A stretch of DNA of 64,000 nt from Brevibacillus sp. JNUCC-41 (GTDB taxonomy: Bacteria; Bacillota; Bacilli; Bacillales; DSM-1321). Under the pieces are notes generated by a model. The model was not told the DNA's origin, searched no databases, and saw nothing but the letters and a program-made list of their open reading frames with translations. Both the position numbers and the translations under genes were made by a program. Each line of letters opens with the position of its first letter. The first letter of the stretch is position 1. Shown here piece by piece: positions 9,874-10,832 of this stretch. The DNA is taken from positions 558,001-622,000 of the forward strand of contig NZ_CP062163.1 in the NCBI RefSeq assembly GCF_014844095.1, written 5' to 3'.

Positions 9874-10023
9874 TCATGATTGTACTTGCTTACTTCCCTT
9901 TTTTTCATTGATGGCTTTTTGATCGATTTTTATATAGATGCGTTCCACTTCCATTTTGTCATGCAATAGAAGTTCGCGGTTTTCCTTTAGCAGTTCAGTA
10001 TAAAATTTCCTTCTCCTAGACAT
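9874..10023 (-). CDS. fbpB: Fur-regulated basic protein B-like
   Basis: A 49-residue, very basic protein (MSRRRKFYTELLKENRELLL, then KMEVERIYIKIDQKAINEKK). It matches the FbpB pattern: an Arg-rich start, an xELxKENxxxLL helix and an E-R-I helix. In B. subtilis FbpB helps the small RNA FsrA repress iron-rich proteins during iron starvation. The ATG overlaps the fbpA stop by 8 nt behind GAGAGGTGA, so translation is probably coupled. A Fur box precedes the operon. It was missed by longer-ORF thresholds. Confidence 0.75.
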   Translation of the reverse strand: MSRRRKFYTELLKENRELLLHDKMEVERIYIKIDQKAINEKKGSKQVQS

Positions 10024-10183
10024 TTTTTAATTCACCTCTCAAGTGATTGAATTCCTTTTGTAAAACAACGATCGGAAGCTCATATAGTTGTTTATTATAT
10101 TTTTTAAAAATCCCTAATTTCAGAAGCTCTTGTATAAGTTCCTCTTTTTTTACTTCTCTCTTTGAACTTAATTGGGTAATCAT
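10016..10183 (-). CDS. fbpA: Fur-regulated basic protein A-like
   Basis: 55 residues with the FbpA core: KKEELIQELLKLGIFKKYN, then KQLYELPIVVLQKEF. The family is short, helical and basic, and acts with the iron-sparing response in Bacillus. The start is well defined: an AAGGAGGG ribosome binding site lies 6 nt before the ATG. Its first 80 nt overlap the 3' end of the flavodoxin gene in another frame, and its last 8 nt overlap fbpB. The three genes therefore share one transcript under the Fur box at 10768-10788. Confidence 0.8.
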   Translation of the reverse strand: MITQLSSKREVKKEELIQELLKLGIFKKYNKQLYELPIVVLQKEFNHLRGELKNV

Positions 10184-10715
10184 CAAGGACCCTCCTTAAC
10201 AAAAATGCTGACTTTCGGTATTTCGGACTGCCTAGCATCCGATCCCACATGCAGATTCTCCATTTCTTCCTATTGCTTCCCCATATAAGGGCATGCTCTG
10301 CAAAGTCTTCACTTTTCCTAAATTGTTCGTATGTATTGCTTTCATGGTGTATTTTCAATACTCGATCATATACATCAAATCCAAATTGCTTCATTTTATC
10401 GGAAAGGATATCTATCGCGGCGCACGGTTTCGAATGGGTCAAGTCGCCGGCACCAAAGAATGCGACCTTCCCTCCAGCAAAGTCCACCTGGTCAATTTCT
10501 TCATAAAACTCGTGTGCTTCATACGGTAAATCTTCAAGATTCCATGTATATAAACCAATAAAGGCCAAATCAAAATCCTTTAAAGCATCAACTTCAACAG
10601 TATCCAATCTTTCCATATATACTTCACAGCCGACAGCCTTCATTCTATTCTTTATGTTTATAGCCATCTTCTCGGTATTACCGGATAAACTGACATAACC
10701 AATGAATACCTTCAT
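10104..10715 (-). CDS. flavodoxin-like protein, probably iron-starvation induced
   Basis: FMN-binding electron carrier. The phosphate loop SLSGNTEKMA (residues 9-18) and the later GLYTWNLEDLP and FFGAGDL segments are typical. The flavodoxin fold accounts for about 150 residues, yet the frame runs to 203 because the stop lies inside fbpA. The last 27 or so residues are a second reading of fbpA and may not be functional. Flavodoxins such as B. subtilis YkuN and YkuP replace ferredoxin when iron is short. The Fur box upstream and fbpA-fbpB downstream fit that role. Confidence 0.85.
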   Translation of the reverse strand: MKVFIGYVSLSGNTEKMAINIKNRMKAVGCEVYMERLDTVEVDALKDFDLAFIGLYTWNLEDLPYEAHEFYEEIDQVDFAGGKVAFFGAGDLTHSKPCAAIDILSDKMKQFGFDVYDRVLKIHHESNTYEQFRKSEDFAEHALIWGSNRKKWRICMWDRMLGSPKYRKSAFLLRRVLDDYPIKFKERSKKRGTYTRASEIRDF

Positions 10716-10767
10716 CTATATCACCTTCCTAATTGAGAATTAATTTCATTACACAGTTTACTATAAA

Positions 10768-10788
10768 TGAAAATGATTCTCATTGTCA
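10768..10788. promoter_or_regulatory. Fur box upstream of the flavodoxin-fbpA-fbpB operon
   Basis: A near-perfect palindrome containing GAAAATGATTCTCATT, close to the Bacillus Fur consensus built from TGATAAT-N-ATTATCA. It sits 53 nt upstream of the flavodoxin start, so iron-loaded Fur would shut off the operon. Confidence 0.85.
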
Positions 10789-10832
10789 ATTATTTGTTCC
10801 CTATATATATAATGCCGCTGGAACGTTTCTTC

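Follow-up and report, generated by a model that had tools for sequence, protein, structure and literature searches.

A flavodoxin-fbpA-fbpB gene row behind a Fur-like promoter, conserved among Peribacillus genomes

Replacement of ferredoxin is a known role of flavodoxins. Two described systems stand closest to the locus considered here. The B. subtilis ykuNOP genes are part of the Fur regulon (PMC4409812), and B. subtilis FbpA and FbpB are Fur-regulated supporters of the small RNA (sRNA) FsrA whose mechanism is given as unknown (PMC12871923, PMC7430163); FbpB has been linked to an FsrA target, and its binding of RNA is described as unproven (PMC7430163). The short-chain flavodoxin operon ykuNOP shares with our locus a Fur-type promoter, in many cases with a pair of boxes, and provides the closest flavodoxins outside Peribacillus; it has a second flavodoxin, whereas the Peribacillus operon has fbpA and fbpB instead and a C-terminal tail on its flavodoxin. 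The B. subtilis-type fbpAB operon holds the same two families side by side and occurs in genus g44, where a perfect Fur box lies upstream and any flavodoxin is more than 1.5 kb away (loci L040, L045 and L047), whereas the Peribacillus operon starts with a flavodoxin. The FbpB proteins of these g44 operons end in IDRKH, as opposed to KIDQK in Peribacillus, and, set against the B. subtilis type, the Peribacillus FbpB falls below the NCBIfam FbpB equivalog cut-off. Among the matches listed for the literature on Fbp proteins, on flavodoxin operons and on Peribacillus flavodoxin or Fur, judged by titles and the beginnings of abstracts, there was no description of the flavodoxin-fbpA-fbpB order. We consider the locus best read, with a probability of roughly 0.7, as a three-gene iron-economy operon derepressed from Fur. 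The computed basis for this reading consists of the protein families, the gene order, the promoter layout, conservation and coding constraint.

Layout and gene products

In the window, by which we mean the whole 64-kb stretch of DNA analyzed, an iron-saving flavodoxin gene, fbpA and fbpB form a compact gene row on the minus strand behind a Fur-like promoter (Table 1). The sequence and its open reading frames were as given in a preliminary description of this DNA, with one adjustment: the fbpA start is better set at the ATG of Table 1, since of the 19 genomes, the source genome included, in which the start could be placed, 4 lack the TTG at 10186. From this shift it follows that the flavodoxin gene and fbpA overlap by 80 nt and fbpA and fbpB by 8 nt; the genes do overlap each other and the flavodoxin end, as originally described, and the two tiny proteins are indeed basic, with computed pI values of 9.6 for FbpA and 9.8 for FbpB. 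No intrinsic terminator was found behind fbpB down to 9700. Separately, a GC-rich interspersed repeat with the core GAGACTCCTGCGGGA occurs in eight copies in the window, against 0.06 expected, at positions 1835, 9516, 9705, 11684, 15925, 21132, 33979 and 36934, and two of these copies sit just behind fbpB.

Table 1. Coordinates of the genes and predicted control features, numbered from the first letter of the window
Feature	Position	Strand	Details
Flavodoxin	10104..10715	-	203 aa; PF00258
fbpA (Fur_reg_FbpA)	10016..10183	-	ATG at 10183; 55 aa; PF13076
fbpB (Fur_reg_FbpB, KID variant)	9874..10023	-	49 aa; PF13040
Predicted sigma-A-type promoter	10760..10789	-	-35 TTGACA 10789-10784; 18-nt spacer; -10 TATAGT 10765-10760; 11/12 matches
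Fur-like operator between -35 and -10	10768..10788	-	two overlapping 7-1-7 motifs
Second Fur-like motif, leader	10734..10748	-	TGAAATTAATTCTCA; 3 mismatches; 34 bp from first
Predicted hairpin	10182..10200	-	buries fbpA Shine-Dalgarno AAGGAGG 10197-10191; touches ATG

All three family assignments were borne out by scores above the Pfam cut-offs: 59.7 bits for the flavodoxin (PF00258, cut-off 25), 34.5 bits for FbpA (PF13076, cut-off 22) and 30.7 bits for FbpB (PF13040, cut-off 25). The flavodoxin also exceeds the NCBIfam model NF005216 (130, cut-off 127), and the solved structures closest to its model are B. cereus flavodoxins 2 and 1 (6gaq and 6fsg; TM 0.89 by target); by family score as well as by fold it belongs to the short-chain flavodoxins of PF00258. 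Its predicted fold is that of a flavodoxin to about residue 146, followed by weakly predicted tail helices at residues 150-179 and by disorder at 182-203, and the 80-nt overlap encodes residues 178-203, where the tail is mostly predicted to be disordered. FbpB reaches 19.2 bits against the NCBIfam equivalog NF033227, below the cut-off of 60, and we therefore refer to the product as an FbpB-family protein and not as an FbpB orthologue. For FbpA, the model (mean pLDDT 80) gave no credible match among solved structures, and none was obtained by sequence profile. A kinship of FbpA with the N-terminal domain of IF2 was considered and rejected, the sub-threshold match being found in only 1 of 22 FbpA members.

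Both small frames evolve as genes. In 12 aligned genomes, 16 of the 21 changes in fbpA outside the overlap were synonymous (dN/dS-like ratio 0.10, P 5e-7), as were 22 of the 46 changes in fbpB (ratio 0.34, P 3e-4), where a synonymous share of 0.23-0.24 is expected without constraint; the other two frames showed no synonymous excess in the same genomes. The 12 are those of the 22 genomes with the locus that have a 203-aa flavodoxin frame and no frame difference, loci L017 and L019-L027 being left out, and the test scored each distinct change relative to a close-relative consensus and gave transitions double weight. For the flavodoxin core the dN/dS-like ratio was 0.33.

The promoter region

The operator combines the motif TGACAATGAGAATCA, with three mismatches, and the motif TGAGAATCATTTTCA, with two; the latter forms the Fur-like box at 10782..10768 and agrees at 12 of 14 specified positions with TGATAATNATTATCA, which we take to be the Fur consensus and used for scoring. 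By itself the Fur pattern is at chance level, with one site in the 64-kb window against 0.79 expected, and promoter-like sites between 9700 and 11000 are also near chance (5 found, 3.9 expected), the operon promoter being the best of them. The box gains weight because it lies between the -35 and -10 elements and is present in all 22 Peribacillus loci with the flavodoxin; it is identical in 21 of these and nearer the consensus in the remaining one (L018). The -35 element TTGACA is retained in 22 of 22 genomes, the -10 element differs in three, and the second Fur-like box is present in 20 of the 22. With a 7-1-7 predicted operator at its promoter the operon counts as a predicted member of the Fur regulon, and the near-consensus Fur-type control region proposed in the preliminary description holds at two mismatches in 14.

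Outside Peribacillus, two boxes lie 36-37 bp apart in 8 of 17 flavodoxin loci, these 8 belonging to genera g44, g12 and g42; the remaining loci have one box, another spacing or more distant boxes, or none close by. A search of plasmids with the operon gave a single partial match, to the megaplasmid of Niallia taxi, in which a similar two-box promoter stands ahead of a flavodoxin-like open reading frame. Because such two-box layouts recur in these genera and in Niallia taxi, we suggest that the operon promoter resembles those of Fur-controlled ykuN-type flavodoxins, where the ykuN label for the flavodoxins of the relatives is our assumption from sequence and gene pairing. In the source genome, Fur sites with at most one mismatch number 10, where the reversed pattern used as a control gives 2, and the window box, with its two mismatches, is not among them; inspection of the open reading frames around these 10 sites, which was not systematic, yielded no clear sRNA candidate. 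As an observation apart, a one-mismatch Fur-like box in the source genome (L180, G000:C1:5236341) precedes by about 80-110 bp an open reading frame that we presume from its cysteine pattern to be a ferredoxin, the protein that the flavodoxin would replace.

Conservation and variation within Peribacillus

A search of related genomes for the same gene order showed it to be conserved. The flavodoxin of the locus was found in 22 of 36 Peribacillus genomes (E <= 1e-30), the other 14 having no flavodoxin match at that threshold. The FbpA core stands behind the flavodoxin in all 22 and has a usable start in 20, the start region not being intact in G007 (L017) and G012 (L025); FbpB is present in 21, whereas in G022 (L027) fbpA is altered at its end and lacks an fbpB behind it. 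Together with the synonymous excess in both frames, this bears out conservation of the fbpA and fbpB frames in relatives, on which the preliminary description had made its reading depend. In a search of named records the flavodoxin was present at all 12 loci, including those of P. frigoritolerans, P. simplex, P. butanolivorans and P. muralis, though these are largely the same genomes as the 36 and so not independent of them. It is the presence of this gene set in such named records that places the source genome in Peribacillus. One genome outside the 22, G016 (L159, G016:C1:4161500-4166500), has lost most of the flavodoxin and kept fbpA and fbpB along with some of the control region, so the fbpA-fbpB pair can outlive the flavodoxin.

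The flavodoxin frame itself is less uniform. It measures 203 aa in 13 of the 22 genomes, 183 aa in four, 177 aa in one, 172 aa in three and 161 aa in one, and the most divergent copies, those of G010 and G022, end at 172 aa, ahead of fbpA. The length of the flavodoxin/fbpA overlap differs even among close relatives and is therefore not a conserved coupling device: of the coupled message proposed earlier, the overlaps are present, but conserved coupling is not borne out. Downstream drift of the flavodoxin stop codon is the simplest account of this variation; we give no count of stop losses, since only 8 of the 19 inner branches of the flavodoxin-core tree are well supported. The predicted hairpin at the fbpA start is well formed in the 203-aa genomes with a placed start (somewhat weaker in G034) and also in G028 and G010; it is altered in G003, and its stem is poor in G013, G017, G018 and G030 (loci L021-L024). 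Across 11 distinct sequences of the 22, one pair in G010 and another in G003 have both partners changed, a result equaled by 35 of 500 shuffles; loci L017, L025 and L027 were left out of these counts because another start was chosen or no result was obtained, and L007, L008, L010, L012, L014-L016 and L024 as duplicates. The 151-nt stretch containing the hairpin folds no better than shuffled sequence (z -0.01).

The variation in overlap among close relatives suits a reading of the locus as a neighborhood only, in which members of a single regulon came to lie side by side with no functional link and the overlaps are by-products of compaction and stop-codon drift. The tail encoded by the overlap is mostly predicted to be disordered, the 12 aligned genomes show only 13 changes in the overlap, 5 of them synonymous in the flavodoxin frame (P 0.18), which is too few to show constraint on that frame or on either frame, and the persistence of fbpA and fbpB in G016 without most of the flavodoxin points the same way. 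Such a reading sits uneasily, however, with an order that 22 of 36 Peribacillus genomes share behind a nearly invariant promoter, and with fbpB lying directly behind a flavodoxin in two further genera, and we regard it as possible but somewhat unlikely.

A probable iron-economy operon and its relation to FsrA

Read as an iron-economy operon, the locus would respond to falling cell iron when bound Fur leaves the two-box promoter, as the operator suggests, and, to judge from the gene spacing, a single message would be made from it. The ykuN-type flavodoxin would substitute for iron-containing ferredoxin as an electron carrier. Ribosomes would get to fbpA and fbpB by way of the overlapping frames, whose conservation suggests products made in step with the flavodoxin, and the hairpin over the fbpA ribosome site may aid this translational coupling. 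The small basic proteins are thought to help shut off iron-rich enzymes and would act on mRNAs together with an sRNA. The operon most likely arose by the joining of a Fur-controlled flavodoxin gene to an fbpA-fbpB pair. We infer this joining because G076 holds the two units apart: its fbpA-fbpB locus (L192), the best-scoring unlinked one in the FbpB profile search described below, combines a perfect Fur box with the absence of any flavodoxin within 1.5 kb, and a Fur-boxed flavodoxin stands separately in the same genome. After the joining, the flavodoxin stop would have moved downstream until it lay within fbpA in some Peribacillus genomes. The arrangement is real and conserved but is a recombination of known parts, not a system of a new kind; the earlier interpretation as a whole is thus partly supported.

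An FsrA gene, suggested earlier as something to look for, was not found in the source genome with Rfam: RF02273 gave no match there at E <= 0.001, with 150 of 1407 first-look candidates scored. Across the order, where stricter filters were used than in the source genome, RF02273 matched 8 of 249 genomes at E <= 0.001, and the 5 above the cut-off all belong to genus g44; the FbpB family is present in 239 of the 249 and FbpA in 145, so that both families are far more widespread than Rfam-detectable FsrA. The Rfam model may be too narrow, and a divergent sRNA is therefore possible in the source genome. A role of FbpA and FbpB as FsrA helpers is suggested by their family names. Of the earlier claim that these proteins are iron-sparing helpers, family membership in Pfam stands, but no Rfam FsrA accompanies them and FbpB scores about a third of what the NCBIfam equivalog cut-off asks. 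The operon is of moderate interest because poorly understood Fbp proteins here sit in a setting without detectable FsrA.

The genomes with FsrA offer a direct comparison. In G146, G173 and G247 of g44 a Fur-boxed fbpA-fbpB pair is found in one place and a Fur-boxed flavodoxin followed by a second flavodoxin in another; G078 and G270, also of g44 with FsrA above the cut-off, have the flavodoxins and no FbpA match. The statement that fbpAB and the flavodoxin genes are separate loci is supported for three of the five FsrA genomes, since G146, G173 and G247 carry them apart; fbpB also stands behind a flavodoxin in two other genera, so that this placement is not unique to Peribacillus. All five of these g44 genomes have fsrA on the contig that carries the two-flavodoxin locus, about 3-5 kb upstream of it.

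The two other genera are g12 (family f11) and g2 (family f1, the Peribacillus family). A Fur-boxed flavodoxin is followed by a second flavodoxin and then fbpB in G205 and G230 of g12, and by a shortened second flavodoxin and then fbpB in G264 of g2, whereas in G413 and G318, both of g12, a flavodoxin lies directly ahead of fbpB. No FbpA was found beside the flavodoxin-fbpB genes of these five genomes, in which they differ from Peribacillus, as G205 and G230 also do in keeping the second flavodoxin and G264 in keeping it shortened. Their FbpB proteins are the closest to that of Peribacillus. When 397 genomes of the order were searched with an FbpB profile, the best ten loci all held a flavodoxin or a remnant of one (G021, G034, G000, G016 and G015 of Peribacillus and G230, G264, G205, G413 and G318 outside it), against none of the next 20. 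Of these ten, the flavodoxin-linked FbpB proteins from which the profile was built already included three from outside Peribacillus and at least two from within it, so that only G413 and G318 are independent cases outside the genus, and further matches within a genome were given no locus. Since G045 and G091 of g12 and G107 of g2 gave no profile match at E <= 1e-4, the flavodoxin-fbpB link is not general within these genera. Among distinct frames, the motif KID[Q/E] near the FbpB end was shared by 23 of 24 when a flavodoxin was at the locus and by 0 of 27 when it was not, the lone exception being another FbpB in the L027 locus and most of the 27 being Peribacillus paralogues with endings like ERLEKKH. 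In a wider set, KID was found in 9 of 20 unlinked loci (L193-L200 and L202), often followed by KH or KY, and the linked G318 has KIA. As a mark of flavodoxin-linked FbpB, KID is thus only partly useful, and because of this weakening profile rank is the better sign of a possible separate FbpB branch.

These loci invite a bolder proposal, which we consider rather improbable: that a distinct FbpB branch is dedicated to Fur-controlled flavodoxin operons, that translation of the Peribacillus flavodoxin opens the fbpA hairpin and so meters the helpers, and that the proteins act without FsrA, by way of another sRNA or of the flavodoxin. If FbpA and FbpB were not sRNA helpers at all and acted on or with the flavodoxin as its partners or regulators, one FbpB branch would be expected beside flavodoxins, and both the ranking of the ten best profile loci over the next 20 and the rarity of FsrA (above the cut-off in 5 of 249 genomes and one genus) beside the frequent FbpB and FbpA would fit. 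The independent outside cases are down to G413 and G318, however, three genomes of the same genera have no profile match, fbpA and fbpB of G016 survive with most of the flavodoxin gone, the Rfam model of FsrA may be narrow, and work on B. subtilis links FbpB to a target of FsrA (PMC7430163), which together make a flavodoxin-partner role quite improbable. An assembly error or frameshift in the source genome as the origin of the flavodoxin tail and overlap, although the tail lies outside the flavodoxin domain, the neighboring frame is open up to the fbpA start and G028 and G007 differ in frame here, is refuted by the relatives that share the 203-aa frame (13 of 22 genomes, the source included, 12 of them read alike to the end) and keeps next to no probability. 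For the iron-economy operon that we prefer, fbpA and fbpB behind a flavodoxin, along with FbpB relatives behind flavodoxins elsewhere, provide natural contexts in which Fbp roles without the B. subtilis FsrA can be considered.

Members of both families also occur away from the operon. In the source genome, two FbpA-family open reading frames lie in tandem near 772 kb (L071, 6646-7183), and no Fur-like box with at most two mismatches was found in the 10 kb around them. A second FbpB-family gene of 45 aa, with ERLEKKH near its end, lies near 4207 kb (L073, 5191-5328) among very short open reading frames, and the sole Fur-like motif upstream of it, at 90 bp, has three mismatches; the gene upstream of it is presumably aconitase-like. 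Frames of about 216-218 aa around FbpA matches raised the prospect of a flavodoxin-FbpA fusion, which was rejected when the six that were fetched proved to be FbpA joined to another domain. In these six genomes of genus g22, family f21 (L062-L067), an FbpA-family domain forms the N-terminus of a protein of 214-218 aa, the second part of which we take, from a GCFWG motif, to be like peptide methionine sulfoxide reductase A (MsrA). The fusions suggest a role for FbpA beyond Fur-linked small proteins.
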